Shown here in pieces: positions 13,587-28,760 of a stretch of DNA of 64,000 nucleotides. The position numbers were made by a program, and so were the translations under genes. How positions within the stretch are numbered: position 1 is the stretch's first letter; each line of letters opens with the position of its first letter. The notes beneath the pieces are model-generated. The model was not told where the DNA came from. It ran no database searches and worked only from the letters and a program-made list of their open reading frames with translations. Where the stretch lies: positions 3,971,501 through 4,035,500 of the forward strand of contig NZ_AP014627.1 of assembly GCF_001547895.1 (NCBI RefSeq). The letters are read 5' to 3'. The stretch is from Pseudomonas sp. Os17 (GTDB lineage Bacteria > Pseudomonadota > Gammaproteobacteria > Pseudomonadales > Pseudomonadaceae).

Positions 13587-15798
13587 AGCAAGGCTCCTCC
13601 TCCATCGGCGCCACCTGCAATGCAGATCCGCGCCCCCAGTTGGTCGGCTTCTGATAGGCCCATGGGCGTATACCACTCTTGGCCAGTGCCGGCATACGCC
13701 TCTTACGCCACCCCAGCCGATGCATGATCGCACCCACGCGCATCTGCTCCGGCTTCCCCCAGTGACTGGGATCGATCTTCAGAACCTCGGACAGGATCTG
13801 ACTGCCGGTGGTGGTCTCCCCAAGGTGCGACTCTTCCAACCACTTCAGAATTGGCACCTCCCATTCATCCACCACAAAGCGCTCTTCCTGCGCCTCGGCG
13901 AACAACGGCGCTTCATCACGGATCACCCACCAGATATCGCCGGCCTGATAGCAGAACATCGCCTCGGCCCAGAGCTGGTCGCGGATCTTCCGCAATTGCT
14001 CCAGGTCGACCTTGGTGCAGGCCACCGGCCAATAACGCCGGTTGCCGGTGGCGTCCTTGAGGTATTCATCCTGGTTGGTGGTGCCCACGAAAACACACTG
14101 GCGTGGCACGTCCATCGTTCTGCGGCCGTAGCTCTCGCGGTAGGTGTCCACCGAGGCCGAGAAGAACTGCTTGGCCTTGGTCGATTCGGCTTTGTTGAAG
14201 CTGTCCAACTCGCCCAGCTCGATAATCCACTTGCCCCGGATCGCCTGGAACGCATCCTTGTCGCCCAGGGTAAACGGCGTGTCCATAAACCACGAACCGC
14301 CGAGAATACTCATGGCCGTTGACTTACCGGCGCCCTGGGCGCCTTCCAGAATCATCACCGAGTCCGCCTTGCAACCCGGCGCCATCACCCGGCCCACCGC
14401 CGAAACCATCCAGCGCTTACCGACCTTTGAGCTGTAGTCGGTCGGTTCCACGCCCATGATCTCGGTGAGCCAGGAATCGAGGCGGGGCACGCGATCCCAC
14501 TCAAGGCCACGCAGATAATTGCGCACCGGGTGAAACGCTCGATAGTGCGCCACCACGCTCACCGCCTCGATCACGTTGCCGACCTTGACCCGCAGGTTGT
14601 ACTGCTGCGCGAGCCACTTCATCACCAGCATGTCGTCGATGTCGGCCCAGTCGCCGGTGTCGCCGCCATAGGGCGGTACCCGCAGCTTGACGATCTTGGC
14701 GCTGAACGAACAGAAGCCAATCACCCCGGCCCAGCGCTCATCATTGCTCAGGATCAGTTCAACGTTCTGCATGTGTGCGATCAGCATGCCGCTATCACTG
14801 CGGGCCAACTGATCCCGCCAGCCGCCCGCGGCGGGTGGCCTGACCACCGCCAGCACCTGACGACGCACTGCCTCCAAACCTTCGGCGCAATGCAGGTCGT
14901 TGAAGTCGGTCCACTTGATCTCCCGCTCGCCGGAAAAGATCGGGGCCACCACCTGGCCACCGACCACCGTCGCCGCGTTTTCAGCACGCTCTCTGCCTGG
15001 GTTCCAGGGCTCGCCGTTGGCCCGCCTGGTCTTCCAGTCATCATCCCGACAGACAATGATCGGGCACCCAGCAAAGCGCTCACGCATCGCCTTGCACACC
15101 GGCATGAGATTACCCGCATCAAAGGCGATGGCCACGGTCAGCGAGGTCGCCATATGCAGGCTGGCGCCGGTGGCGTAGCCCTCACACACCAGCACCGGCT
15201 CGCCGGGCTCAGGGTGCGGACCGATCAGGTGGAAAGCGCCCTCTTTGGACAAACCATAGGGCCAATAGGACTTGTCGCGCCCGGTGTCTTCCTGCTTTTC
15301 GGGATAGATCACCTGCAAGCCGACGATCTGGTCGCGTACGTTGCTCATAGGCACCAGGAACGCACCCGAGCGCGGCGCATAGCGCACCCCGAAGCCCACC
15401 ACTTGCTTGCGGTCCAGGTAGGTGCTCTTGCCCTTCTCCGGCATGCGCTTGAACAACCCAGCGGCACGCTTTGCCGCACGACGCGCTGCATTGGCGGCGA
15501 CTTCCGCCGCCCGGCGTTTCGCCTCTTCCTGCCGGGCGCGCATCACCTCACGCTCCTCGGCACTCATCCGCCCGGGTTTGACCTTAATCTTCTGTGTCAC
15601 ACCCGAACGCCAGTCGCCAAAGCTGCCGAAGATCAGGGTCTCGCCCTTCTCGGTGTAGTGCTCATGCACCACGTACCAGCCGTTTTTCTCCTTGCCCTTA
15701 TCCTGCGCCGTCTTGCAGCGAGTGAGTTTGCCGAACACCAACGGCTGCGCGGGCTCCAGGCCATAATCGGCGAACTGCCCCAAGACCTCATCAAGCAT
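13579..15798 (-). CDS. Replicative primase/helicase: Toprim plus VirE-type ATPase
   Basis: Starting at ATG 15798 (GGAGG nine bases upstream) the protein has 739 residues. It has an N-terminal basic region with a helical Arg/Ala-rich stretch (80-120). A Toprim domain follows, with CEGYATG at 205-211 and the acidic DDD at 252-254. The C-terminal superfamily 3-like ATPase of the VirE family has Walker A GAQGAGKST at 486-494, followed by ELGELDSF (Walker B region) and FVGTTNQDEYLKDATGNRRYWPV (sensor and arginine). It would prime and unwind DNA at the phage origin. It overlaps both neighbouring genes. Confidence 0.94.
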   Translation of the reverse strand: MLDEVLGQFADYGLEPAQPLVFGKLTRCKTAQDKGKEKNGWYVVHEHYTEKGETLIFGSFGDWRSGVTQKIKVKPGRMSAEEREVMRARQEEAKRRAAEVAANAARRAAKRAAGLFKRMPEKGKSTYLDRKQVVGFGVRYAPRSGAFLVPMSNVRDQIVGLQVIYPEKQEDTGRDKSYWPYGLSKEGAFHLIGPHPEPGEPVLVCEGYATGASLHMATSLTVAIAFDAGNLMPVCKAMRERFAGCPIIVCRDDDWKTRRANGEPWNPGRERAENAATVVGGQVVAPIFSGEREIKWTDFNDLHCAEGLEAVRRQVLAVVRPPAAGGWRDQLARSDSGMLIAHMQNVELILSNDERWAGVIGFCSFSAKIVKLRVPPYGGDTGDWADIDDMLVMKWLAQQYNLRVKVGNVIEAVSVVAHYRAFHPVRNYLRGLEWDRVPRLDSWLTEIMGVEPTDYSSKVGKRWMVSAVGRVMAPGCKADSVMILEGAQGAGKSTAMSILGGSWFMDTPFTLGDKDAFQAIRGKWIIELGELDSFNKAESTKAKQFFSASVDTYRESYGRRTMDVPRQCVFVGTTNQDEYLKDATGNRRYWPVACTKVDLEQLRKIRDQLWAEAMFCYQAGDIWWVIRDEAPLFAEAQEERFVVDEWEVPILKWLEESHLGETTTGSQILSEVLKIDPSHWGKPEQMRVGAIMHRLGWRKRRMPALAKSGIRPWAYQKPTNWGRGSALQVAPMEEEPCFD

Positions 15799-16015
15799 GG
15801 CGGGCCCTCCGCACATCATCGATCTCCTGACAGGTCACACACATGGTGCAACCCGGCTGCGCCAAGCGGCGCGCTTCGGGAATAGGACCGTCACAGTCTT
15901 CGCAGATAAGGAAGGAATGCGCCGCCAACTCAGGTCTTAGCAACTGACGCGCCGCAAGCGCTTGATCGAGGCGCTCTTGCACCAGATCGTTGGCAAAATC
16001 CGCAATGTCAGCCAT
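15791..16015 (-). CDS. DksA/TraR-type C4 zinc-finger protein
   Basis: From ATG 16015 the protein has 74 residues: MADIADFANDLVQERLDQALAARQ, then LICEDCDGPIPEARRLAQPGCTMCVTCQEID. The C-x2-C-x17-C-x2-C pattern is that of TraR/DksA. Short TraR-like proteins bind the secondary channel of RNA polymerase and imitate DksA with ppGpp. A phage copy may redirect host transcription during lytic growth. It overlaps the primase gene by eight bases and the cII-like gene by eight. Confidence 0.9.
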   Translation of the reverse strand: MADIADFANDLVQERLDQALAARQLLRPELAAHSFLICEDCDGPIPEARRLAQPGCTMCVTCQEIDDVRRARHA

Positions 16016-16526
16016 GGTCCGCCCCCCGAGTGGTCTGGTTGACGTAACAGGCACGGTTAAACATGCCCAGCAGCCCCTGTATGCCGCGAAACACCTGCAG
16101 GCGGATTTCGGCCAGCTCGGCGTCACTTACCACACCATCGCCGATGCTCTTGGCCCAGGTGTCGGCCAGGTCGGCAACCTGACGGAAATACACCGCGATG
16201 CCCGTGGTCAGCGTCTCCGGCATGTCGTTGGTGTAAGCCTCGGCCAACTCCTGCCAGATCGTGTCCCCTACCAAGGCATGCACCGCATCGAGAATGCGCC
16301 GGTCCTTGGTCAGCTCCAGAATCTCGCCGAATTCTTGAATGTTGATGCTGTGGCTAGGGTGGGTGGGAGACAGCTTGTGCTGCAGCGTGGTCGGGTTGCG
16401 GCCGGTGGTGGCAGCGATGGCAGCGGCGCCGCCGGGATAGTCCCGGGCAGCATGGTAAAGCGCGAGATCGAGCGGCAAAACTTCCCGCTTGGCCCGCTCA
16501 ATGCAGTTCAGAGCAATACGGCTCAT
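16008..16526 (-). CDS. CII-family phage regulatory protein (Phage_CP76 type)
   Basis: The ATG at 16526 has AGGATTA upstream; the protein has 172 residues. MSRIALNCIERAKREVLPLDLALYHAARDYPGG leads into an HTH-like AAIAATTGRNPTTLQHKLSPTHPSHSINIQEFGEILELTKD. This pattern (LALYHAARDYPGG..A.A.G.....L..KL.P....H.L...E...I...T.D) is the CP76/CII family of Pseudomonas and Burkholderia phages. It is probably the activator or repressor that decides between lysis and lysogeny. It is the second leftward gene after cro. Confidence 0.88.
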   Translation of the reverse strand: MSRIALNCIERAKREVLPLDLALYHAARDYPGGAAAIAATTGRNPTTLQHKLSPTHPSHSINIQEFGEILELTKDRRILDAVHALVGDTIWQELAEAYTNDMPETLTTGIAVYFRQVADLADTWAKSIGDGVVSDAELAEIRLQVFRGIQGLLGMFNRACYVNQTTRGADHG

Positions 16527-16852
16527 GGCATTAATCCTAAAAGTTGCCAGTGCCGCGCGGCATGCAGTGGTGATACATTTGCCGCGTGGCTTGAAAGGGC
16601 CCAAACGCCGGCTAGGTCCGCAAGACCGACACCGGCACCGTGCCGAGGCGAACAATCCGTTGTTCACCCCTGGCGCAACAGCTGCCCAATCTGTGGTGGA
16701 GAAGGCAGCAACCCAAGGCTTCCGAGCCTTGAAAGCGCGGTTGAAGTAGACGTTTTTGCATGTGGTGTGCGCGCCTACCTACACCGCGACCCGGCGACAC
16801 TGTGGTGGTGTGTGCCGGGAGGAACTGGGCGGCCCTTGGGTCGCCTTTTTTC
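16527..16852 (+). ncRNA. Structured cro-cII interval; possible plus-strand antisense RNA
   Basis: No convincing protein gene lies here. On the plus strand there is a compact hairpin with a tetraloop, CAAGGCT-TCCG-AGCCTTG (16714-16731), and further GC-rich pairing. A clear terminator follows at 16828-16851 that works only in the plus direction. The known genes on both sides are on the minus strand, so the terminator implies a plus-strand transcript antisense to the cro-cII leader. Lambda oop and the P4 immunity RNA are precedents in this position. No promoter has been proven, so this is a hypothesis. Confidence 0.35.
16828..16851 (+). terminator. Plus-strand terminator facing cro
   Basis: An 8-bp stem (GGCGGCCC with GGGTCGCC, one G-U pair, loop TT) is followed by TTTTTT, then TCTTAGG. 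On the minus strand there is no U-tract after the stem. It ends two bases before the cro stop codon. Confidence 0.8.
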
Positions 16853-17044
16853 TTAGGCTGCTAACGCAGCATCTTGTTTCGTAGAGCTAACCTTGAGCTC
16901 CCCCCCAGATAGGGCCTGCAATTGGTACTGCCTCAATTGAGGTACACGCACACCCCATTGGGATACCGCCGCAGGGGAAATACCCAATGCAGCAGCCAGC
17001 TTCGATTTGCTCTTGAAAAATGTGACTGCATCTTCGGTGAGCAT
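16853..17044 (-). CDS. cro: Cro-like repressor
   Basis: The 63-residue protein starts MLTEDAVTFFKSKSKLAAALGISPAAVSQWG. The HTH (KLAAALGISPAAVSQWGVRVP, about 15-35) is of the P22 Cro type. It is divergent from the S24 repressor gene with a 100-bp operator region between. GGAG lies ten bases before the ATG. Its job would be to shut off repressor transcription and tune the leftward lytic operon. Confidence 0.9.
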   Translation of the reverse strand: MLTEDAVTFFKSKSKLAAALGISPAAVSQWGVRVPQLRQYQLQALSGGELKVSSTKQDAALAA

Positions 17045-17144
17045 CAGGGCACTCCTTCAGTTACACAGCCAAAATTTAAGAACATTTAAATTATTTTTGC
17101 AACAGCTAAACAAAACTTAATTCCAAAGGATTTAAGCTAGCTTA
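17045..17144. promoter_or_regulatory. Immunity operator region with divergent promoters
   Basis: A TTGCAA at 17097-17102 reads the same on both strands. On the minus strand it is followed after 17 bases by TTAAAT (17074-17079), a good promoter for cro. On the plus strand TAATTC at about 17118 could serve the repressor. TTTAANNGTTCTTNAA overlaps the cro -10 (minus strand, 17074-17090), and TTAAGCTAGCTTAA (17132-17145) is a perfect palindrome touching the repressor start codon. CTTAA/TTAAG half-sites also lie between (17115-17136). These are probable CI and Cro operators. Confidence 0.75.
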
Positions 17145-17798
17145 ATGAATATGTCCGAACGAATTGCCTACGCCCTGAGCACATCTGGCAAGCAACCAAG
17201 AGACCTCGCTAGAGAGATCGGGATCAGTGTTGCTCGCATAAGTCAATTGAAGGCTGGGTCCGGAGGCATAAAGGCAGAAAATCTATTCGCCTTTGCTCGC
17301 GCGACAAACTGCTCGGCACGATGGCTAGCAGAAGGTGCTGGAAAGCCAGAAGATGGGGATAGTTCGCCAGCCCAAGACTTCACCATCATTCCTCCATACA
17401 GCACTAGAACGTCTGGCAACGGACAATTGAACGACAACGCAGAAGCCCCTTGCGGACTGGTATTCAAGCGTGAGTGGCTCAACCAGATGAATCTTGAAGA
17501 ACGCAATCTCAAGGTTATATATAACCAAGGTGGCAGCATGGTGCCGACCTTGGCAGATGGCGATATGCTACTCCTTGATGAAAGCCAGACTGAGCCCTCG
17601 AATCGGCGGATCTTTGCCATTAGCCGTCCAGACGGTGAACTCACTATCAAACGACTTGTGCTCACAATGACCAACGGATGGATCATTCGTAGTGACAATG
17701 AAGACAAGCGTCAGTATCCCGACGAGATCGCCTCAGAACAAGAAATACGCCACCTTCATATAGCAGGCAGAATCGTCTGGCATGGCGGAGCGCTTTAA
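17145..17798 (+). CDS. CI-type prophage repressor with S24 peptidase domain
   Basis: The 217-residue protein has an N-terminal HTH_XRE domain (KQPRDLAREIGISVARISQLKAGSGGIKAENLFAFARAT, 16-54) and a C-terminal LexA-like S24 domain. Ser131 in GGSMVPTL and Lys169 in ELTIKRL are the catalytic dyad. A possible cleavage pair is Cys103-Gly104, although it is closer to the serine than in LexA or lambda CI. It should hold the prophage silent and release it after SOS induction. The start codon overlaps an operator palindrome, so it may control itself. Confidence 0.92.
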   Translation: MNMSERIAYALSTSGKQPRDLAREIGISVARISQLKAGSGGIKAENLFAFARATNCSARWLAEGAGKPEDGDSSPAQDFTIIPPYSTRTSGNGQLNDNAEAPCGLVFKREWLNQMNLEERNLKVIYNQGGSMVPTLADGDMLLLDESQTEPSNRRIFAISRPDGELTIKRLVLTMTNGWIIRSDNEDKRQYPDEIASEQEIRHLHIAGRIVWHGGAL

Positions 17799-17821
17799 AA
17801 AATCAAGATCAGGGAGCCCTT

Positions 17822-18214
17822 ATGACAACGAATGTCATCCGCAGCAAAAACGCCCCACAGAGAGCAGGGCTAACCCACGAAGAGATCTGGGACGGGCCAG
17901 ACCAAGGACTAATTATGTCGTGGGAGGTAGGGCGCGCTCGTGCCATGACATATCCAGAGCTTGCCCAGCAGTGCCTGTCCGGCCAGCTTCCCATCTTGGG
18001 CTGGAAAGGGGGAGTATCCCGGGCACTAAAAAAACGCGAAAAATTCGGTTCACTTAAGTACCTAGCGCAATGGCAGGGACTAAGGGGCGAAGATCTCAAC
18101 ATTGATTGCTCGAAGGAGCACACGCTTACCTGCACAAACACTGGGATGGCCGTTACGTTCACATCAGATAAGGCGAAATACGTCAATCAAAGCACGGAAA
18201 ACGATAGCGATTAA
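17822..18214 (+). CDS. Hypothetical protein co-transcribed with the repressor
   Basis: The 130-residue product starts MTTNVIRSKNAPQRAGLTHEEIWDGPDQGLIMSWEVGRARAMTYPELAQQCLSG when read in segments, and it has no transmembrane segment. It is soluble, mixed alpha/beta, with Trp-containing motifs (LPILGWKGG, LAQWQGLRGEDL). It begins 23 bases after the repressor stop, with AGGGAG before the ATG, so it is probably expressed in the lysogen. I do not recognise the family. Location next to CI suggests a lysogenic conversion or exclusion role. Confidence 0.75.
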   Translation: MTTNVIRSKNAPQRAGLTHEEIWDGPDQGLIMSWEVGRARAMTYPELAQQCLSGQLPILGWKGGVSRALKKREKFGSLKYLAQWQGLRGEDLNIDCSKEHTLTCTNTGMAVTFTSDKAKYVNQSTENDSD

Positions 18215-18227
18215 GGAGAGACGCGAA

Positions 18228-18860
18228 ATGGTTGATTTGCATCAGGAATTTCAAAATAGCCGTTTTTTTCATGAGGCTCGCATAGACAGGCGATCTGTAG
18301 ACGCACTGATCGGTATTGCAGCAGGCATAACGGCCGATGGAAACATCAACGAAAAAGAAGCAATTTTTCTGAAAAACTGGATCAAAAGTAACCTAATTCA
18401 TCTTGATGATCCTGTTGTAAACATCCTTTACCGGCGCCTGGACGATATGCTACGCGACGGGATTCTTGATTCTGATGAAGCAGCAGAGCTACTGAGCCTC
18501 CTTAAGCAGTTCACAGGGATTCAGGAGGGGCCCGCAAAACTCTTCTCAGCCCCAACATCCCTACCCCTGAACAACCCTCCCCCCACCCTCTCCTGGGAAG
18601 ACCAAGTATTTATGCTTACCGGGACAATGGCATATGGTCCTCGAAAACATTGCGAAGCCTTGATCACAGAGCGAGGTGGCCGTATTGGAGGCTCCGTTAG
18701 CAAGAAGGTTAATTTTCTGATTATCGGCAGCATTGGCAATGAACAATGGATGCACACAAGCTACGGGCTAAAGATCAAAAAAGCCGTTGAGCTCCGCGAA
18801 GCAGGTACGCCGATTTCGATCATCAGTGAGGAGCACTGGCAAAGAGCCATATTCGGATGA
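18228..18860 (+). CDS. BRCT-domain protein with TerB-like N-terminal region
   Basis: Start ATG 18228 follows AAGGAGAG; the product has 210 residues. Residues about 20-95 (SVDALIGIAAGITADGNINEKEAIFLKNWI, then DGILDSDEAAELLSLLKQFTG) are helical with acidic loops and resemble the TerB/DnaJ-associated helical domain. Residues about 122-205 form a BRCT domain (FMLTGTMAYGPRKHCEALITERGGRIGGSVSKKVNFLIIGS, ending AGTPISIISEEHW), as in DNA ligase LigA. BRCT domains bind DNA ends or protein partners. It lies 13 bases after the previous gene in the repressor operon, so it should be made in the lysogen. Confidence 0.85.
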   Translation: MVDLHQEFQNSRFFHEARIDRRSVDALIGIAAGITADGNINEKEAIFLKNWIKSNLIHLDDPVVNILYRRLDDMLRDGILDSDEAAELLSLLKQFTGIQEGPAKLFSAPTSLPLNNPPPTLSWEDQVFMLTGTMAYGPRKHCEALITERGGRIGGSVSKKVNFLIIGSIGNEQWMHTSYGLKIKKAVELREAGTPISIISEEHWQRAIFG

Positions 18861-18904
18861 GTGTCGCTCCAGACCACTACCGCAACCCGCCTAACTGGTA
18901 AGAC

Positions 18905-18925
18905 CTCTTAAAGAAAAATTAAGAG
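18905..18925. repeat. Inverted repeat upstream of the rightward phage promoter
   Basis: CTCTTAA and TTAAGAG face each other across seven A-rich bases. The halves resemble the TTAAG/CTTAA half-sites of the immunity region, so this may be an auxiliary operator. Confidence 0.55.
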
Positions 18926-18928
18926 ATA

Positions 18929-18957
18929 TTGACATAAGGATTTAAGAGTTCTTTAAT
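18929..18957 (+). promoter_or_regulatory. Strong sigma-70 promoter with repressor-type operator for the rightward cluster
   Basis: TTGACA (18929-18934), 17 bases, TTTAAT (18952-18957). The operator-like TTTAAGAGTTCTTTAA (18941-18956) overlaps spacer and -10 exactly as a near-identical sequence does at the cro promoter. This places the small genes up to the integrase under the same repressor. Confidence 0.8.
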
Positions 18958-18992
18958 TTGCCTCACTCTTCACCACAGAGCGAGGCAATACC

Positions 18993-19172
18993 ATGCACAC
19001 CACCGCCACACTGCACGTCCATCCGGCATGTGCCAGAAACCCAAAACTGATTGAGCAACTGCAATCCAATACCGGCTGCCTGGTTGTTCTTCACGACAGA
19101 AAACTGAAGCTCGTGGCAAAAAAACGCGGGCCCTCCCCCTTCGATCCGAACGGTGGAGGTAACGCGGCATGA
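18993..19172 (+). CDS. Small phage protein, first gene of the rightward cluster
   Basis: A 59-residue open frame begins MHTTATLHVHPACARNPKL and ends SPFDPNGGGNAA. It overlaps the next start codon (ATGA at 19169-19172), which is strong evidence of translation in an operon. A short hydrophobic stretch (GCLVVLHDRKLKLVAKKRG) and a basic C-terminus are visible. Function unknown. Confidence 0.75.
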   Translation: MHTTATLHVHPACARNPKLIEQLQSNTGCLVVLHDRKLKLVAKKRGPSPFDPNGGGNAA

Positions 19173-19753
19173 GCAAATTCAGAGTCGACAACCGCACGCT
19201 GCAACTGCTCAAGGCCCAGGTCAACCTGAGCGAAACCTTCCACCACACCCTGCGCGATTCACCACAGCGCACGGCGCTGAAGCTTCGGCTGAAGGTTGAT
19301 CGAAACCCGGCAGACACCACTTTTGTTGTCGAGGTTGGCAGCGAACGCCACACACTGACCCTGGCCAACGACAAGAAAGCCCACCTGAAGCTGGCTGACT
19401 TCATCGAAGAAATCGCCAACGGCCCAATCGATCCTAACGCCGAGCTGGCTCCACCACGGCACGCCGAGCGCGTGTTCGGAGCCTTCAGCGCCCAACAGCG
19501 CGAGCAGGTGTTTGGCGTGGTGTGCCTGGGCGGTTTCCTCGATCTGGATCTCGGGTTTGAACTGCCGATTCGTCTGGCCGTGCACCGCACCCGAACGCGC
19601 AAGGGCGTCACTGTGATCCTGAGCATCGGCGTCAAAAGCCCAAGGACCAAGTGCTTCACCGTCTCAGGCAGCGACGTGCAGATGTACCAGGACGTCTGCG
19701 AATCCATCCTTCACCTGGCAGCGCTGGCGACTCCCGCCGCGCACGCTGCTTAG
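19169..19753 (+). CDS. Hypothetical phage protein
   Basis: The 194-residue protein starts MSKFRVDNRTLQLLKAQVNLSETFHHTL and contains RHTLTLANDKKAHLKLADFIEEIANG and a more hydrophobic centre (VFGVVCLGGFLDLDLGFELPIRLAVHRTRTRKGVTVILSIG, in parts). It is probably a soluble alpha/beta protein. It is linked by overlap to the gene before and by nine bases to the KilAC gene after. I do not recognise the family. Confidence 0.75.
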   Translation: MSKFRVDNRTLQLLKAQVNLSETFHHTLRDSPQRTALKLRLKVDRNPADTTFVVEVGSERHTLTLANDKKAHLKLADFIEEIANGPIDPNAELAPPRHAERVFGAFSAQQREQVFGVVCLGGFLDLDLGFELPIRLAVHRTRTRKGVTVILSIGVKSPRTKCFTVSGSDVQMYQDVCESILHLAALATPAAHAA

Positions 19754-19762
19754 GAGGCCACC

Positions 19763-20047
19763 ATGGATCGCAACCTCAAGGAAACGGCCCGGTACTTCGG
19801 CATCACACGACCGCAGCTGATCGGCCTGATGCAAGAGAAAGGCTTGCTCAACGCCGAGCGACTGCCAGCCTATCCAACGCGCGACCGTGAGTACCTGGGA
19901 ACCAAGGAAGGCAAATGGTTCCACCCGGAGCTGGGCCTGCAGTACAGCCAGTCAACGCGGGTTCGACAGGCCGGCATTCCCTGGCTTGCCGAGCAACTGG
20001 GCCTCGCCCTGCCCGCTATACCGGCAGATCGCCGTGACGTGGCCTAG
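19763..20047 (+). CDS. KilA-C domain antirepressor-like protein
   Basis: The 94-residue protein, MDRNLKETARYFGITRPQLIGLMQEKGLL followed by RDREYLGTKEGKWFHPELGLQYSQSTRVRQAGIPWLAEQL, matches the KilA-C (ANT) domain: an HTH-like TARYFGITRPQLIGLM, then the basic R.G..WL.. end. It has only this domain, without an N-terminal BRO or Rha part. KilAC proteins often relieve prophage repression. GGAGG precedes the start. Confidence 0.85.
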   Translation: MDRNLKETARYFGITRPQLIGLMQEKGLLNAERLPAYPTRDREYLGTKEGKWFHPELGLQYSQSTRVRQAGIPWLAEQLGLALPAIPADRRDVA

Positions 20048-20213
20048 GGAGTACGCCCGCCAGATCATCGCCTTACGGACCAAAGAGGAGCGTAACGCCG
20101 CGCTCCTTGAGGTACCCGAGCATCTGCGCGAGCTGACCAAAGCCCACTGCCTGATCACCTGGAACCACCCGAAACGCCGCCAGCGCATGGAGAGCCAGCA
20201 AGCCAATGACTAA
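20034..20213 (+). CDS. Small phage protein overlapping the KilAC gene
   Basis: A GTG at 20034 gives 59 residues, VTWPREYARQIIALRTKEE, then RNAALLEVPEHLRELTKAHCLITWNHPKRR. It overlaps the KilAC stop by 14 bases and the next start by eight. The composition (basic, helical) and the double overlap favour a real gene. Similar small proteins occur in Pseudomonas phage early clusters, but their job is unknown to me. Confidence 0.65.
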   Translation: MTWPREYARQIIALRTKEERNAALLEVPEHLRELTKAHCLITWNHPKRRQRMESQQAND

Positions 20214-21576: not shown

Positions 21577-22641
21577 GTGCGCAAGAGAACCACAGCCAAC
21601 CGCGACCTACCGCCGCGCATGGTGCGCCGTATCAGAAAGGGCAAGAACGGCCAGATCTGGACGGCGTACTACTACGACGGCAGGGACGCCACCGGCAAAC
21701 GCAAGGAAATCCCACTGGGCACCGACCTCGATCAGGCCAAGGAGGAATGGGCCAGGCTGGAACGCAGAACGCCACCCAAGCCTAACCACCTGATGAGCTA
21801 CGTATTCGACCGGTACGAAAAGGAGATCATCCCCGGCAAGTCGATCCGTACCCAGTCGGACAACCGCAAGGAACTCAAGCAGCTCAGGAGAGCCTTTGAA
21901 AACGCACCTATCGAATCGATCACCCCCCAGGTGATCGCCCAGTACCGCGATGCCAGAACCGCCAAGGTCCGAGCCAATCGAGAAATCGCCCTACTCTCTC
22001 ACGCATTCACCATTGCCCGAGAGTGGGGCCTGACCGACAAAGCCAACCCGTGCTTCGGCGTTCGCCGCAACAAGGAAAAGCCCAGGGACTACTACGCCGG
22101 CGAGACCGTATGGAATGCGGTCTACGCCGAGGCGGTGCAGGAACTGAAGGACGCGATGGACCTGGCCTACCTAACCGGACAACGCCCCGCAGACGTGCTC
22201 AAGATCGCCGCCACCGACCTGAACAATGGGTTCTTACTGATAGGTCAGGGCAAGACCGAAAAGCGCCTACGCCTGCGCCTGGAGGAAGAAGGCGTGCAGT
22301 CAGGCTTGAGCACTTTTATCGAGGATCTAAAGGAACGCAGAGCCATCAACGGCATCAGGACGTCGACGCTGATCACCAACGCCTCAGGGCTACGAATGAG
22401 CCAGCAGATGCTACGCAACCGCTGGGACGATGCGCGGGAGAAGGCCGCCATCAAGGCTGCGGCCGATGGCGATCCGGCACTGGCGGTCAGCATTCGGCAG
22501 TTTCAGTTCAAGGACATTCGGCCCAAGGCGGCTAGTGAGATTGAGCTGACGCATGCAAGTAGGCTGCTTGGGCATTCAACCGAGGAGATGACCAAGAAGG
22601 TCTATCGGCGAGTTGGGGAGATCGTTAAACCTACGAAGTGA
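21577..22641 (+). CDS. int: Tyrosine-recombinase phage integrase
   Basis: The 354-residue protein starts with GTG 21577. It has an arm-binding N-terminus (KGKNGQIWTAYYYDGRDATGKRKEIPLG, about 21-48), a core-binding domain (about 70-165) and a catalytic domain. Catalytic residues are Arg203 (TGQRPADV), Arg315 in FKDIRPKAAS, His333 (LLGHSTEEM) and Tyr343 (KKVYRRVG). The first residue of the usual H-x-x-R is Lys312. It would insert and excise the prophage. Its reading direction toward 22.6 kb puts an attachment site downstream, either near 22.65-22.73 kb or at the tRNA-Cys gene at 28.3 kb. Confidence 0.95.
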   Translation: MRKRTTANRDLPPRMVRRIRKGKNGQIWTAYYYDGRDATGKRKEIPLGTDLDQAKEEWARLERRTPPKPNHLMSYVFDRYEKEIIPGKSIRTQSDNRKELKQLRRAFENAPIESITPQVIAQYRDARTAKVRANREIALLSHAFTIAREWGLTDKANPCFGVRRNKEKPRDYYAGETVWNAVYAEAVQELKDAMDLAYLTGQRPADVLKIAATDLNNGFLLIGQGKTEKRLRLRLEEEGVQSGLSTFIEDLKERRAINGIRTSTLITNASGLRMSQQMLRNRWDDAREKAAIKAAADGDPALAVSIRQFQFKDIRPKAASEIELTHASRLLGHSTEEMTKKVYRRVGEIVKPTK

Positions 22642-22737: not shown

Positions 22738-24483
22738 TCAAACGCTAGTGCTTTCAATAAGCATTTTGCGAATAGTCAGGTTTTCTAGCTTTGCAACGAT
22801 AGGGCTGCTGTTATCAATATGTTCTTTTACATGCATCCCTTCATTGTAAATTACACCGAGCAAGTAGAGCGTCTCGCTTACCTCAACGCCAGCGGATTCC
22901 GCAACATCTAATTTTGCTTTTGTTCCATTGCTTGTTAAAAAAGTATTTCTGTCAACCTCTGAGGTAATTTTTTCGAAAAGGATGTTTTCTATTTTTACTC
23001 GAACATAACAACAAACCGCAAATGGATCATAGTCATCGCTGCCGTTTGAGTATTTCTGCCATTCACCGTGGGTGTGTGCATGGAATATTGTTGAATCCCC
23101 CCATGTCTCTTTTAATCCGAGGGATTGAAACTCGGCCCTTAAATTTATAGCTGTAGGGCAATAATGCAGATGATGTCTATCTACACCAGAGGAAATTGTA
23201 GGGTCAGCTCTCTTAACAATTAATTTTTTGAAATGCTCATTCAAAGCAGGTTTAGATTTTTTGAGAAAATAAATTTTTTGATCTTTGAATGTAAAGTTTC
23301 TGAAGTAAACAGGGTTCAAATGGGTAAGGATAAGTGGATATATTTTTTGCCCTAGCGATTTTTTTTCTTTTATAAGGTTTGATATGTAATATTGTACCGC
23401 CACAAGGTTTGCGTCATCTAAATAATCAAATACCTCATCTATGACAAGTATGCAGTCCTTTCGATTTTGTGCGTTGTTTACTTTTTGAAGCCACACCGCA
23501 AAGCATAGTGAGTCTCGTTGCCCATTTGATATGTTGGATGCCGCTGGAAATTCAACAATGAGCTTTCCTCCCGACTCTGTTGGACGAATATTTTTCCATG
23601 TTGTGTCAAAAGAACTGATAACTTTTTCATATCTAATTTTATCATTGAGATACGATCTATACTTACAAGCTTTTTTAAAGATTTCTTTGTCCTGATTGTA
23701 GTTCAGACATATTTGATAAGCATTCAGAAGCGTATCGATTCTATCTTGCTGAGTTGAGTCGATTCTGGCTAGCAATGAGGAAACTGAGCTTATGCATTCG
23801 ATGCTTCCTAGGTCTTCTGCTATATGATTAGTGGCCCATAAACGCAGGCTGTCGGCAGTGCCAGTCTCTTGATTGATTCTTCCAATTATGGTGCTTATTT
23901 TTTGCTGAATGCGAGTTCCTGAGTACTTGTCCAAAAGGAGATATAAATTTTGAATTTCTTCTATAAACTCGGGGGCTATTAGTAACTGATCAATATTTCT
24001 CAGTATCTTGGCATTTGCACCGAAAATCGACTTTGTCTGCGTAAAGTTGTACAAGAAATTTGTTTTGGTCGGGATTCGGGCGACGAGTACAAATGGATCA
24101 ATTGCGATTGATGCCGAAGCAGTTGTGAAATTCCCCATGTTTCTTTTTGTACTTTTGGCTATTAGCCTATTGCTTATCACGTGAACGTCGTATCTGTCGC
24201 TTATAGAGTTCGATGTTCCGTCAGCGCTTAATGTAGCAACTGAATCATCTTGGGAGATAGTTATGGATAATTTGGGTTGTAGATCTTCATTGCCTTGATG
24301 CATTTGTTCTTTAGCTAGGGTCAAGCGTACAGAATTGAGGCCAGCAAAGGCTGCAGCGAAGGAGCTTTTCCCGAAGCCATTAGGCGCAACAAGCAAAGAA
24401 GGTTTGTTTGGAATTATATTAAGCTCAAAGAGCTGATTCTCAATGCCTTTTACATTTTCAATGTGGATAGACCTGATCGTCAT
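22738..24483 (-). CDS. ABC/SMC-type ATPase, probable phage-defence protein
   Basis: The 581-residue protein begins MTIRSIHIENVKGIENQLFEL. Its Walker A is APNGFGKSS (33-41), the ABC signature is SNGQRDS (319-325) and Walker B is CILVIDE (344-350) followed by VFDYLDD. The two halves of the ATPase are separated by about 270 mostly helical residues, as in OLD/RecF-like AAA proteins. The C-terminal 170 residues contain CPTAINLRAEF, HAHTHGEWQKY and a conserved-looking RVKIENILFEKI helix; no nuclease motif is obvious. The gene is much more AT-rich than its neighbours, a sign of transfer. It follows a small Cys/His protein gene on the same strand. Confidence 0.85.
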   Translation of the reverse strand: MTIRSIHIENVKGIENQLFELNIIPNKPSLLVAPNGFGKSSFAAAFAGLNSVRLTLAKEQMHQGNEDLQPKLSITISQDDSVATLSADGTSNSISDRYDVHVISNRLIAKSTKRNMGNFTTASASIAIDPFVLVARIPTKTNFLYNFTQTKSIFGANAKILRNIDQLLIAPEFIEEIQNLYLLLDKYSGTRIQQKISTIIGRINQETGTADSLRLWATNHIAEDLGSIECISSVSSLLARIDSTQQDRIDTLLNAYQICLNYNQDKEIFKKACKYRSYLNDKIRYEKVISSFDTTWKNIRPTESGGKLIVEFPAASNISNGQRDSLCFAVWLQKVNNAQNRKDCILVIDEVFDYLDDANLVAVQYYISNLIKEKKSLGQKIYPLILTHLNPVYFRNFTFKDQKIYFLKKSKPALNEHFKKLIVKRADPTISSGVDRHHLHYCPTAINLRAEFQSLGLKETWGDSTIFHAHTHGEWQKYSNGSDDYDPFAVCCYVRVKIENILFEKITSEVDRNTFLTSNGTKAKLDVAESAGVEVSETLYLLGVIYNEGMHVKEHIDNSSPIVAKLENLTIRKMLIESTSV

Positions 24484-24633: not shown

Positions 24634-24858
24634 TTATTTTTGTAGCTCTTCGACAATTTTATTCAATTCTTCTTGTGCTTTTTTTATTATCGCAGGTGCG
24701 CACTCCATGCAAATATTTAGGCGCTGCCCCGGGACCTTTTCATAAGCAAAATGTTTTTCGCCTTTGGAAATTGTATGGCTGCTTTTTGCATCACACTTGC
24801 GGGTGCCCGCACTAATTTCAAACCTGAAGTCGCTGATGATGTTTCTAATATTTGACAT
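24634..24858 (-). CDS. Small Cys/His protein, probably zinc-binding
   Basis: The 74-residue product starts MSNIRNIISDFRFEISAGTRKCD. Cys22, His28, His36 and Cys50/Cys53 (KCDAKSSHTISKGEKHFAYEK, then NICMECAPAII) look like a zinc ribbon similar to a PARP-type or treble-clef finger. A charged C-terminal helix follows (KKAQEELNKIVEELQK). AGGGAG lies before the ATG. It is 150 bases upstream of the ATPase gene on the same strand, so the two may form one system. The family is not known to me. Confidence 0.75.
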   Translation of the reverse strand: MSNIRNIISDFRFEISAGTRKCDAKSSHTISKGEKHFAYEKVPGQRLNICMECAPAIIKKAQEELNKIVEELQK

Positions 24859-25251: not shown

Positions 25252-26436
25252 CTAGTCAAGCCAGCTAAAGAATTTCGACTCAAAGTCCCAAACTGTGAAG
25301 TAGTGGTCGCCGTCCCAGTAGGCTATCTTTCCTCGATCAGTTACGGATCGTTTGGCACGGAAAACAGTATCGGTATTCTTCAGCGCAAGAATCCTTTGAT
25401 CTAGGATTGGGACTTCGTGACCCTGTAATCCATGGGTATCCTGCCCAACGATATGCTTAGGCAGGGCCATTAGCAATGCGGCGTGGGTGGTTTCCTTTAA
25501 CACAAGCGCGAAGACATTCCCGATTGTGCCGTACCCATCGCGCGCGTGTACAACTAAGGCATTGCTGCCCCCCTCCAACCGTCGCAACACCGAAATCAAA
25601 TGATCATCTGATACCAGCGCCGACTTATCGCGAATAACACCTCCCTCAGCTTGGCGGCACCATTCGGCAACATCCTTCGACGTGTTCAGTTCCAGCAGAC
25701 CAGAAGATCGGTTAGCAAATCTTTGTGCGCCGGGCAGGTAACGTGAAGTGGTGACGAAAATCCCACGATCAGCACCGTCATTCGCAACAACACCTCGAAG
25801 AGCTGCTACCGCTTCTAGTCCAATAGGGCGGGATGGTGAGTATCGCTTGGCCTGAACGTAAACGAGGGTGTCCCCTAATGGCCCGCGTTGGAGCAATCGG
25901 ACATCGACGCCGCCATCTCCTACACCGGGTCCCAGCTCTGCCTCATAACCTAGGTTCTGGAATATTCGATAGAGCAGTACTTCAAACTCACGGTGGTGAA
26001 GACTAAGTAGCCGCTCAGGGCGAGAGTAGAAATACTGATAGAGCTCAGCATAAAGATCGCCGAAGTCCTCTATTATTAGGCTGCACACCCACCTCCATTG
26101 AAAGTACGCGTCATAGGCAGTCTGTAACTCTTCTGTTTCGGCCAGAAAATAGAAGGAGTGCCCATCACAGTTTTCAAACCAAAAGCCGTATGCTCCAGCA
26201 ACCTCCTGAAACTGCGCCCGCAATTTTGGATCGTAGTCTTCATCCAGAAGCCGCCCCAGATCTCCTCCGCTGCGGAGAATGAAAATCACGGCGCCATCTC
26301 CTGGCTCCCCGTCTACATGCTCGGCGTAAGAGACAAAGTCACTGTCATGCCAAAGGTCGTGGGAAACAGCCCAGGCTTCGAGAGCTTTCTGCGCATCCTG
26401 AATTAATTTTTCCAGCTGCTTATCTGTGTATTCCAT
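25252..26436 (-). CDS. Mrr-like restriction endonuclease (modification-dependent type IV candidate)
   Basis: From ATG 26436 the product has 394 residues. Residues about 149-240 form an Mrr_cat domain: HREFEVLLYRIFQNLGYEAELGPGVGDGGVDVRL with Asp178, then LVYVQAKRYSP with the Q-x-K variant (Gln195, Lys197), and LRGVVANDGADRGIFVTTSRY. This is the PD-(D/E)xK fold of Mrr nucleases that cut foreign or modified DNA. The 140-residue N-terminal and 150-residue C-terminal parts are unfamiliar and may read the DNA. The gene stands alone, between repeat-containing spacers, in the cargo region. Confidence 0.88.
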   Translation of the reverse strand: MEYTDKQLEKLIQDAQKALEAWAVSHDLWHDSDFVSYAEHVDGEPGDGAVIFILRSGGDLGRLLDEDYDPKLRAQFQEVAGAYGFWFENCDGHSFYFLAETEELQTAYDAYFQWRWVCSLIIEDFGDLYAELYQYFYSRPERLLSLHHREFEVLLYRIFQNLGYEAELGPGVGDGGVDVRLLQRGPLGDTLVYVQAKRYSPSRPIGLEAVAALRGVVANDGADRGIFVTTSRYLPGAQRFANRSSGLLELNTSKDVAEWCRQAEGGVIRDKSALVSDDHLISVLRRLEGGSNALVVHARDGYGTIGNVFALVLKETTHAALLMALPKHIVGQDTHGLQGHEVPILDQRILALKNTDTVFRAKRSVTDRGKIAYWDGDHYFTVWDFESKFFSWLD

Positions 26437-26569
26437 TGACACGTATCTCGCTTGCCAGTAGCAACCTGGCCCGCAGGGGAAGAAACGATCTATCTCGAAA
26501 CGCTATTATGTGAATCATTCATAGTTTCGTAGACGCCTCAAAAACCTCAAAATCGAGCCTAGGTAAACA

Positions 26570-26588
26570 TCTGCTTCTGGCCGAAAGC
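26570..26588 (+). repeat. Degenerate third copy of the CCGCTTTTGGCCG repeat
   Basis: TCTGCTTCTGGCCGAAAGC resembles the exact copies at 22676 and 25131. It lies between the Mrr-like gene and the NUDIX/HNH operon, so each cargo block is bordered by one copy. Confidence 0.45.
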
Positions 26589-26657
26589 ATTCGTGATCCA
26601 ACGCGACCTGAATGTTGCTCTAGCCAGAGAACCAAAAAACTACATAGCAGCACCCAA

Positions 26658-26846
26658 TCAAGCCTTATTCAAACGCAGCACAAAACCACGCAAGTGGGTC
26701 AGTGCAGCCATTTGAGGATCAAGACCACGAAGAGTAGTTGTCCGCTGGCTGCCATCAGGAAGATAAACGACCAAGTCGTCTCCATGAACAATGTAGTGGC
26801 TGGTATACGTCGTACCTTCGTGCTCAAAACTAATTTCTTCTTCCAT
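26658..26846 (-). CDS. Small acidic protein at the end of the NUDIX/HNH operon
   Basis: From ATG 26846 the product has 62 residues: MEEEISFEHEGTTYTSHYIVHGDD, then LVVYLPDGSQRTTTLRGLDPQMAALTHLRGFVLRL. It is a beta-rich fold with an acidic start. It begins 15 bases after the HNH stop, in the same operon. It could inhibit or assist the nuclease (for example as an immunity or DNA-mimic protein), but nothing proves this. Confidence 0.7.
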   Translation of the reverse strand: MEEEISFEHEGTTYTSHYIVHGDDLVVYLPDGSQRTTTLRGLDPQMAALTHLRGFVLRLNKA

Positions 26847-26860
26847 ATCCAACTCCCGAA

Positions 26861-27685
26861 TTAAAGACCGTTCAACCGTGCGGTCAATATTTGCCTGTCT
26901 GCATCATCATCCAGCACATGCATTCTGCGGTGGCAGTTGGGACAAAGCGCAGCCGTGTTTTCCACCGTATCGGCACCACCTTTTACAAGCCACACAATGT
27001 GATGCGTCTCGAGAAAGGGGCTTCCGTCCTTCTTGTTGAACGGTGCAGCTTCTTGGCACAAGTCACACCGCCCCTTGGATCTGCGCTTGGCATGCTCCGC
27101 TACCCAGGCCGAACGCTGATGCTGGGTAACTTTGGCACTGCGCTTTCCAACACTTGCCCGCCCCTGGCGCCGAGCGAGCGCCTCTACCTCCGCATCACTC
27201 AATTTACGTGCTTGCTTCTCTTTCACCTGGCTTAGCTGTTGCAGCGTGGAATCTGGTATGGCCGGCAAAGCACCTGACTTAGGGCGTAGCGGGAATACCC
27301 ACACAAAGCGCTCCTGCCCCTCAGCGTCAGGCTGCCTCTCCCGATACGGCTCATCAGCCAGCACTACCTCACCGATGTAGGTATAGGTTTTAGCAGTGAA
27401 TACTTCGAACAGATGCACGGATACGCCGTTGGCACAAGACTCGTTCAGCGTTCTGTTTTGGTTAAATGCCAGCGACTGATCACCCTGCTGCCCCATACCG
27501 GTGTAGTGCAGCACATCATTAACCCAGCGATCGTCATAAATGGACGCCACATGGTTCGAAACGATGACGAGGGTGTTAGTGCGATTTGAGCGGCGCATCC
27601 CACCTTGCGGACTGCATTGAAACAACTGCGTCAGATCGTCGTTATTGAGATTAGAGCCTGGGACTGGAGGAACAAAATTAACCAT
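26861..27685 (-). CDS. SRA-like plus HNH endonuclease (type IV restriction candidate)
   Basis: From ATG 27685 the product has 274 residues. Residues about 20-135 (GMRRSNRTNTLVIVSNHV, DRWVNDVLHYTGMGQQGDQSL, VHLFEVFTAKTYTYIGEVVLADEPYRERQ) resemble the ScoMcrA-type SRA fold, which reads 5-methylcytosine or phosphorothioate DNA. The HNH domain is C-terminal: zinc Cys207, Cys210, Cys248 and Cys251, with His228-His229 and Asn243 in ETHHIVWLVKGGADTVENTAALCPNCH. ATG overlaps the NUDIX stop by eight bases, so translation is coupled. It probably cuts phage DNA with modified cytosines. Confidence 0.85.
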   Translation of the reverse strand: MVNFVPPVPGSNLNNDDLTQLFQCSPQGGMRRSNRTNTLVIVSNHVASIYDDRWVNDVLHYTGMGQQGDQSLAFNQNRTLNESCANGVSVHLFEVFTAKTYTYIGEVVLADEPYRERQPDAEGQERFVWVFPLRPKSGALPAIPDSTLQQLSQVKEKQARKLSDAEVEALARRQGRASVGKRSAKVTQHQRSAWVAEHAKRRSKGRCDLCQEAAPFNKKDGSPFLETHHIVWLVKGGADTVENTAALCPNCHRRMHVLDDDADRQILTARLNGL

Positions 27686-28067
27686 ATGTTCGGATGATCT
27701 CTTCAGCAATTGAAACATCAGCAGGAGCAAGGTCGTATTGCAGTAACTCGTGAGGTCGCACCCACTCGATCAGGTCATGTACCTGCAGGACGAATTGGGT
27801 GGATTGCAAAACGACGCTGACGGCGATCAGTTCGATCGTGCCGCCGGGATAGGTGTAAATCGAAGAAGTGAGAATCTCTCCGGCGACGGACTCAACACCC
27901 AACTCTTCACGTAGTTCACGGGTGATGCAGTCCTGCGCTGTTTCGCCATGTTCAAGCTTACCGCCCGGAAACTCCCACATGCCCGCCAGCTTCTGGCCTG
28001 GAGCTCTGCGCGTGATAAGAATTTTCCCGTCGCGATGTACGACCGCGGCAGCTACTGGTGCTTTCAT
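27678..28067 (-). CDS. NUDIX hydrolase, NudG-like (pyrimidine/modified-cytosine nucleotide type)
   Basis: From ATG 28067 the product has 129 residues. The Nudix box is complete: GGKLEHGETAQDCITRELREELGV (35-58, in two parts). The C-terminal signature LLQYDLAPADVSIAEE matches NudG (EALQYPLAPADIPLLEAF in E. coli) better than MutT. NudG removes CTP, dCTP and 5-substituted dCTP. Longer starts at 28103 or 28238 are possible but have no ribosome site. It leads the operon with the SRA/HNH nuclease gene, which suggests joint action on modified cytosine. Confidence 0.85.
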   Translation of the reverse strand: MKAPVAAAVVHRDGKILITRRAPGQKLAGMWEFPGGKLEHGETAQDCITRELREELGVESVAGEILTSSIYTYPGGTIELIAVSVVLQSTQFVLQVHDLIEWVRPHELLQYDLAPADVSIAEEIIRTYG

Positions 28068-28197
28068 AGCGCGATTCCTTATCGCCAAGTCCGAAAGATC
28101 CATAGGAACGAAGGGAAAACATCTTAGCCGAGAACCATCACCAGCCCGCACTCCGGGGAGGGAAATTCTCTTCAGCGCGACGCCAAAAACAGACGAG

Positions 28198-28231
28198 TTG
28201 CGGAAGTGATCTAAAAATTTGCGGAAGTGAT
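28198..28231. repeat. 13-bp direct repeats spaced by 21 bp upstream of the NUDIX operon
   Basis: TTGCGGAAGTGAT occurs at 28198-28210 and again at 28219-28231, two helical turns apart. They lie 130-165 bases upstream of the NUDIX start and close to the tRNA-Cys terminator. They may be operator sites or recombination arm sites. Confidence 0.65.
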
Positions 28232-28252
28232 TGCCCAAATCCCAGGCAATAA

Positions 28253-28284
28253 AAAACCCCGTAGACGTTAATCTACGGGGTTTT
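28253..28284 (-). terminator. Terminator after tRNA-Cys
   Basis: On the minus strand a 13-bp stem (AAAACCCCGTAGA / TCTACGGGGTTTT) with a six-base loop is followed by TTATTG. It ends the tRNA transcript. Confidence 0.9.
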
Positions 28285-28290
28285 CAAGGG

Positions 28291-28364
28291 TGGAGGCCGA
28301 GGTCGGAATCGAACCGGCGTAGGCGGATTTGCAATCCGCTGCATAACCATTTTGCTACTCGGCC
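28291..28364 (-). tRNA. tRNA-Cys (anticodon GCA)
   Basis: The minus strand folds into a full cloverleaf: 5' GGCCGAG pairs with CTCGGCC before TCCA. The anticodon loop is TTGCAAA (GCA) on the stem GCGGA/TCCGC. The T arm has GGTTCGATTCC and the CCA end is encoded. It lies 5.6 kb from the integrase and is a plausible, but unproven, insertion site for the cargo or the phage. Confidence 0.97.
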
Positions 28365-28760
28365 CCAAGCGTCCAGTACCGTAAAACAACACTGAACACG
28401 TACAAACTGGAACGGCTTTCGAGATCAACCTCATCTCGCAACTCTTTGATTTTTAAAGAGTTTTTCCGTTTCCTCGCTGAGGAATGGTCGCAATTATGGA
28501 CATGTTTTCCATTCCTGGCAACTCCTATTCGATATTTTTTCTGCCGGGCTGTTTCTACAGGTTTCCGGGCAACTGCAAATCCGTGTCGGAGTGGGCAACG
28601 GCGCTGGATGATTGCACAGATGACGGCGGATTGCTCGCTGCTCTTTCCGCACCCTGCCACCTACCCGATCGGGTTATGGCGCGTGTCCGGCCGCTCGCGG
28701 ACAGTAGCGCCAACGGCTCGACCCGGGCTCCTTCCATCAGGTTCAAGGCGGAATTCCAGC
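28365..28760. other. Gene-free interval before the binding-protein gene
   Basis: No supported gene. The frame of the next gene extends upstream to 28446 but lacks a signal peptide there, while an ideal signal peptide begins at 28761. The part at 28440-28510 is AT-rich and may carry the promoter. I see no clear operator. Confidence 0.4.

Follow-up and report, generated by a model that had tools for sequence, protein, structure and literature searches.

Classical restriction protects the host through methylation of its own DNA. Type IV enzymes, whose substrate is modified DNA, are mostly described as requiring no partner that protects the host. Among the latter, TagI, ScoA3IV and ScoMcrA resemble the nuclease described here in their SRA fold, pocket Asp and Tyr, Thr-Gly loop and canonical HNH site (PMC6212794, relevant sections). 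The TagI pocket is formed by Asp58, Tyr67 and Thr68, and a glucose on 5hmC would clash with its Thr68-Gly71 loop (same source). EcoKMcrA carries a similar HNH domain behind an N-terminal domain named NEco (PMC7461809, domain description), and term counts returned no instance of the word Nudix in PMC6212794 or PMC7461809. MutT homologues were noted in 2020 to adjoin SauUSI homologues in Streptococcus, in one legend sentence that assigns the pair no function (PMC7641849, Fig. 9 legend), and the PADLOC candidate model PDC-S07 co-localised with type IV RM in 23 of 23 occurrences in S. suis (PMC12813430, 2026), in a paper whose main text does not contain the word Nudix. PDC-S07 is also listed in S. 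thermophilus (PMC11514479, defence listing). The model is unspecific: it is found in 99% of Enterobacter genomes (PMC12851794, prevalence data), probably via housekeeping NudG, and could thus inflate defence counts that rely on it. E. coli NudG (Orf135) is listed as a 5-methyl-dCTP pyrophosphatase (PMC5389931). Our literature search, which took in few subscription papers or preprints, found no paper that brings Nudix together with SRA-HNH; a search on Nudix and type IV restriction gave PMC5731708 and PMC5512222, of which the latter, in its searchable passages, mentions the two as unrelated items. The initial annotation of the present locus had stated that no described system joins these activities. 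This holds for the function of the pairing, which the passages concerned leave unexplained, but not for co-localisation, already noted in PMC7641849 and PMC12813430.

The window analyzed here is a stretch of 64,000 nucleotides from Pseudomonas sp. Os17, whose genome is one contig of 6.9 Mb. It contains a leftward operon that encodes a Nudix protein, an SRA-HNH nuclease and a small protein (Table 1). All three open reading frames are present on the minus strand with the first two overlapping, as originally described; the gap before the small gene, given as 15 bases, is 14 when counted from that gene's ATG. The overlap likely reflects translational coupling. The Nudix protein has the length of most listed homologues, and conserved homologues exist for all three proteins, so none of the reading frames is due to chance. 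A consensus search of 26400-28500 gave no sigma-70-like promoter, where 1.6 would be expected by chance. The operon lies in a stretch of low GC content (0.45-0.52 across 22-28 kb, against ~0.6 on either side), and its tRNA-Cys neighbor likewise adjoins the unit in two related loci (L001 and L002). A tyrosine recombinase gene occupies the end of the low-GC stretch opposite the tRNA gene; a search for direct repeats of at least 18 bases linking both island ends found none, the one 22-base pair being internal. Downstream of the operon lie a gene for an Mrr_cat restriction endonuclease with an unassigned N-terminus and, preceded by a 74-aa reading frame, a gene for an SMC/RecF-like ATPase that weakly matches PtuA and mad3/mad8; this reading frame and the ATPase gene may form a further defense unit. 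The Os17 genome has no match to PF00145, the C5-cytosine methyltransferase family, and thus offers the nuclease no host mark of this type.

Table 1. Features of the Pseudomonas sp. Os17 window, numbered from its first nucleotide.
Feature	Coordinates	Strand	Description
Nudix gene	28067..27678	-	ATG start, 129 aa, first in operon
Nudix box	27897..27962	-	catalytic motif GKLEHGETAQDCITRELREELG, intact
LAPAD motif	27717..27731	-	its Asp is aligned with the equivalent Asp in E. coli NudG
Nudix/nuclease gene overlap	27678..27685	-	8 bases
SRA-HNH nuclease gene	27685..26861	-	274 aa, second in operon
SRA domain (predicted)	27281..27658	-	~residues 10-135; pocket Tyr50, Asp52, Tyr61, Thr62-Gly63
HNH nuclease domain	26912..27118	-	~residues 190-258; four conserved cysteines
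Small-protein gene	26846..26658	-	62 aa, third in operon
tRNA-Cys	28291..28364	-	directly upstream of operon
Mrr_cat restriction endonuclease	25252-26442	-	match 1.5e-26
74-aa ORF	24634-24858	-	precedes ATPase gene
SMC/RecF-like ATPase	22738-24483	-	581 aa
Tyrosine recombinase	21577-22641	+	

The second gene product is predicted to be an SRA-HNH type IV (modification-dependent) restriction nuclease with cutting activity. Its nearest named relative among the matches listed is from Pseudomonas saponiphila (96%), and its homologues carry Pfam PF26348 together with HNH (precomputed, 120 listed). The HNH domain matches Pfam HNH at 1.3e-9 and its site is complete (His228/229, Asn243 and His252, with zinc-type cysteines Cys207/210/248/251). 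Significant sequence matches to solved structures are limited to this domain: the best is EcoKMcrA (6ghc, 2.7e-18, covering the HNH part only), with ScoMcrA and TagI also found. An AlphaFold2 model built from 25 sequences (pLDDT 87.5, pTM 0.74) was used for the N-terminal part. Foldseek placed ScoMcrA first (4.1e-13) and EcoKMcrA seventh; it also returned the SRA domain of plant SUVH5 (3.0e-6, target TM up to 0.68), UHRF1/UHRF2 SRA, MspJI and, weakly, SauUSI (E 0.015). The model thereby agrees with the proposal in the initial annotation, for which structure modelling had been suggested, of an SRA-like reader joined to a full HNH site. ScoMcrA has an SBD-SRA-HNH build, whereas the window nuclease is SRA-HNH; its 274 aa leave no room for a sulfur-binding domain of the ScoMcrA type.

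Asp58, Tyr67 and Thr68 of TagI align with Asp52, Tyr61 and Thr62 of the window nuclease, in a brief segment whose score alone lacks significance (-0.6 bits). The nuclease also carries a Thr-Gly-Met-Gly loop resembling that of TagI and, given the glucose clash predicted there, its target is predicted to be 5mC or 5hmC. The pocket was compared across 91 relatives of at least 240 aa, out of 97. Among 52 nucleases with an adjacent or fused Nudix partner, Tyr50 is kept in 52, Asp52 in 50, and Tyr61 and Thr62 in 51 each; the corresponding numbers for 39 unlinked nucleases are 32, 34, 32 and 32. Judged by these aligned residues, the SRA pocket is near-invariant in Nudix-linked nucleases and looser in unlinked ones. 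One explanation for linkage to base-flipping readers would be that the Nudix enzyme clears free modified dCTP that otherwise fills the SRA pocket and inhibits the nuclease. This is suggested by crystal structures in which the recognition domain of CMoRE, another 5hmC-reading nuclease, holds 5hm-dCTP (PMC12923530, structural part), but we saw no evidence that a nucleotide inhibits SRA-HNH enzymes at cellular levels, and we regard this role as quite improbable.

The first gene product is predicted to be an active NudG-like Nudix hydrolase (Pfam NUDIX, 2.5e-19; PDC-S07, 6.7e-44). Its nearest named relative among the matches listed is from P. protegens (97%), and its best solved-structure match is 2rrk (2.2e-24), the CTP pyrophosphohydrolase NudG of E. 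coli. The Nudix box and the NudG-like end seen in the initial annotation are both intact. We take the Asp of the LAPAD motif to occupy the position of NudG Asp118, with a role in specificity, and the corresponding MutT residue to be Asn119; the host's own MutT-like protein has Asn in its place. The protein scores below the cut-offs of both PRK10546, the NCBI NudG-type equivalog (107.4 bits, cut-off 156), and the MutT model TIGR00586 (92.3 bits, cut-off 97.9), and is therefore NudG-like but an ortholog of neither NudG nor MutT. It shares the box, LAPAD and nearest structure with NudG, and differs from it in this sub-threshold score (107/156 bits) and in being the operon partner of a nuclease. 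Across 62 restriction-linked Nudix proteins, which include two identical pairs, the box residues are conserved in 61 and the NudG Asp is kept in 61. This Asp does not single out restriction partners, since stand-alone Nudix relatives, picked by similarity, have it in 24 of 24.

The homologues of the small protein form 44 clusters, of which the named ones come from Pseudomonas only, and its gene is found 3' of the nuclease gene in four loci (L001-L004) and the window. It is predicted to fold into four strands and one helix (pLDDT 94.2), and a PDB fold search with this model gave no significant match. It does not belong to the wider Nudix/nuclease system.

Linkage of the other two genes was examined by scanning genome contigs with the nuclease alignment. 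This confirmed 496 relatives, of which the best 80 were taken by similarity, whatever their neighbors. A Nudix partner was called where the Nudix profile scored more than 50 bits within 150 bases of the nuclease or fused to it. Such a partner is present in 45 of these 80 (32 upstream, 12 downstream, 1 fused) and 35 lack an adjacent Nudix gene; linkage falls with nuclease score, from 23/26 above 400 bits to 18/33 at 350-400 bits and 4/21 below. Linked hosts comprise Pseudomonas, Sphingomonadales, Halomonadaceae, Vibrio, Acinetobacter, Bacilli and Clostridia, with metagenome bins labelled Myxococcota, Methanobacteriota and Bathyarchaeota. The initial annotation had proposed a genome search for the pair, and named its uniqueness to this genome or a missing SRA fold as grounds against the idea. 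Both are answered, since the SRA fold is predicted and the pair recurs in many genomes, in both gene orders and with fusions. A Schlafen-group-3 helicase gene (PF09848) directly adjoins the SRA-HNH unit in 8 of the same 80 loci (L010, L011, L012, L013, L018, L021, L034 and L037).

Nearer to Os17, 24 of 95 kin genomes match the nuclease at 1e-10. Only Os17 and one other genome (G016) have a close full-length nuclease, in both cases with the Nudix gene; 13 kin loci with a more distant or HNH-only match (L091-L103) have no Nudix gene within ~1.5 kb. Ten genomes were searched for a cleaner encoded elsewhere, and three with an unlinked nuclease (G100, G101 and G103) have no strong NudG-like gene (best at most 42 bits), which indicates that the cleaner is dispensable. 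A Pfam scan of one neighbor each for 10 of the 35 unlinked nucleases gave no Nudix and no other nucleotide hydrolase; the neighbor of the L075 nuclease matched shikimate kinase and, below the cut-off, a deoxynucleoside kinase. The unit also occurs on viral contigs and plasmids. On IMG/VR contigs, taking the best 80 of 175, 20 of 34 nucleases above 250 bits are linked and 1 of 44 below. On plasmids, 4 of 30 listed SRA-HNH records (of 82) are among 60 listed Nudix records (of 102), and by eye the two genes adjoin in all four by their coordinates: three Priestia records side by side and one Paenibacillus fusion. A Geobacillus plasmid nuclease has no Nudix neighbor. A mirror-tree comparison of 42 loci gave r = 0.778, uncorrected for shared ancestry.

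Fusions occur on either side of the nuclease. In Marinospirillum, a 406-aa protein (L060:5596-6816) has the order Nudix-SRA-HNH; C-terminal Nudix fusions are found in L164 and L165, and another, annotated as NUDIX domain-containing, is carried on a Paenibacillus polymyxa plasmid. The Nudix box of the Marinospirillum protein is degenerate, with conserved box residues lost, and this Nudix part is possibly a binding-only domain. Together with the gene overlaps and fusions, this copy is what could be expected if the Nudix protein were a regulator, or an antitoxin-like restraint, acting on the nuclease by binding rather than catalysis. That 61 of 62 linked copies keep the box residues argues for catalysis, and a restraint is hard to reconcile with the 35 of 80 nucleases (best 80 of 496) that have no adjacent Nudix gene; we therefore consider such a role unlikely. 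A Nudix tree, built by a quick method on 129 columns and poorly resolved overall, contains a branch of 21 rows (SH-aLRT 95) with restriction-linked rows only, in which SRA-HNH partners in both gene orders are mixed with SauUSI-like partners. Since the stand-alone rows had been picked for resemblance to the Pseudomonas type, sampling may explain why this branch has none.

Unselected counts were obtained by searching the same 199 Bacillota genomes with six profiles, that for Nudix giving 68 hits at 1e-18. A Nudix gene lies within 5 kb of 8/12 SRA-HNH genes, two of the 8 being fusions, and of 10/26 DUF3427 (SauUSI-like) genes, against 1/34 for McrC, 0/74 for Mrr_cat and 0/100 for HSDR_N (HsdR). 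Relative to HsdR, Fisher tests gave 1e-9 for SRA-HNH and 1e-6 for DUF3427. Adjacency in 8/12 SRA-HNH genes and, within 150 bases (upstream, downstream or convergent), in 8/26 DUF3427 genes is far above a rough chance expectation of 0.00016 per restriction gene, assuming 2.8-Mb genomes. Two of the four Bacillota SRA-HNH genes that lack a Nudix neighbor have in-frame stops (L161 and L162), as does L159. On closer inspection, no Nudix gene was seen at 20 HsdR loci or at 27 of 30 Mrr loci, three short Mrr loci having been left out. Three checked DUF3427 genes (L130, L147 and L149) have the SauUSI build PLD-helicase-DUF3427, which differs from the SRA-HNH build of the window. The window's Nudix family adjoins such SauUSI-like genes in Bacillota much as a MutT homologue stands beside the nuclease gene in the reported SauUSI pairs (PMC7641849, Fig. 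9 legend). McrBC was rejected as a general partner, the sole McrC case (G286) being also beside a SauUSI-like gene; there, McrC, Nudix and SauUSI-like genes stand in a row (L288/L149; G286:C61, ~15491-20173), so that two type IV enzymes share one Nudix neighbor. Linkage is not obligatory for the nuclease: in 249 unselected Pseudomonadota genomes it was found for 1/5 SRA-HNH genes, that of the window itself, and 1/15 DUF3427 genes.

Seen from the Nudix side, 18 of the 68 Bacillota hits have one of the searched SRA-HNH, DUF3427 or McrC genes within 5 kb. Several of the others adjoin metabolic genes, which indicates that the family also has housekeeping members. The 50 hits outside this distance, and the match of PDC-S07 to 99% of Enterobacter genomes (PMC12851794, prevalence data), could point to a housekeeping MutT/NudG gene carried in defense islands as a chance passenger. 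A passenger would not be expected to avoid the Mrr and HsdR genes of these same Bacillota genomes (0/174), to give the Fisher values above, to be fused on either side of the nuclease or to form a restriction-only branch. With no Mrr or HsdR linkage within 5 kb, this explanation was set aside as very improbable.

Our preferred explanation, to which we assign a probability of roughly 0.4, is a type IV restriction unit that includes a nucleotide-pool cleaner of its own; the main benefit would be protection of the host. In DNA, the SRA domain would flip out and bind 5-methyl- or 5-hydroxymethylcytosine, after which the HNH domain would cut nearby, as extrapolated from TagI and ScoMcrA. The Nudix enzyme would hydrolyze C5-modified dCTP derived from phage synthesis or released from broken methylated DNA. 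Such pool cleaning would keep modified cytosine out of host DNA, where the nuclease would otherwise cut, and a second effect of the same reaction could be to slow phage DNA synthesis. The most likely role for the Nudix enzyme is thus proposed to be removal of C5-modified dCTP, which would keep the target of the nuclease from host DNA and perhaps starve the phage. This one predicted reaction fits both the active-site residues and the choice of partner; from these we infer the substrates and the direction of benefit.

The initial annotation favored a two-layer attack, in which the Nudix enzyme drains the modified dCTP of the phage and starves its replication while the nuclease destroys whatever DNA is still made. 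It is partly supported by the predicted SRA fold, the NudG-like residue and the recurrence of the pair with fusions, and the linkage and residues speak for it as they do for host protection. Defenses that deplete nucleotide pools exist, such as dCTP deaminase and dGTPase, and the unit occurs on viral contigs (20 of 34 nucleases above 250 bits linked, best 80 of 175). An attack on the pool would, however, be equally useful beside other enzymes directed against hydroxymethylated phages, and McrC has a Nudix neighbor in only 1/34 cases. By eye, no plasmid accession is common to 60 of 373 listed GmrSD-type records and 60 of 102 listed Nudix records; both lists are partial and redundant, and the control is weak because Klebsiella makes up 264 of the 373. 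In addition, E. coli has NudG and yet is killed by T4. To our knowledge, the glucosylated target of GmrSD cannot arise from the nucleotide pool. Starvation as the main benefit therefore seems doubtful, and host protection is preferred with modest confidence because the partners are SRA-HNH and SauUSI-like enzymes and not McrBC or, on the weaker plasmid evidence, GmrSD.

The pairing is real and wider than could be seen from one locus, and the chemical logic proposed for it, as a form of type IV restriction, is plausible. At somewhat less than even odds, cytosine-modification-dependent restriction enzymes of at least two builds, SRA-HNH and SauUSI-like, may repeatedly have recruited, swapped and fused a dedicated 5-modified-dCTP hydrolase, making up a class of restriction in which self and non-self would be told apart in the nucleotide pool, where the forbidden base is cleared, and not by marks on host DNA. 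If true, pool cleaning by a linked enzyme would stand as a third means of separating self from foreign, and would give the candidate PDC-S07 a role where it lies beside type IV genes. It would also predict that, once the Nudix gene is lost, the nuclease endangers a host that encounters modified dCTP. The family could also be a source of enzymes that act selectively on 5-methyl- or 5-hydroxymethyl-dCTP; for pool measurement, MutT2 was considered in 2023 and judged too unspecific (PMC10742078, passage on enzyme choice). Overall, the linkage suggests that some modified-cytosine defense enzymes come with their own nucleotide-pool cleaner.
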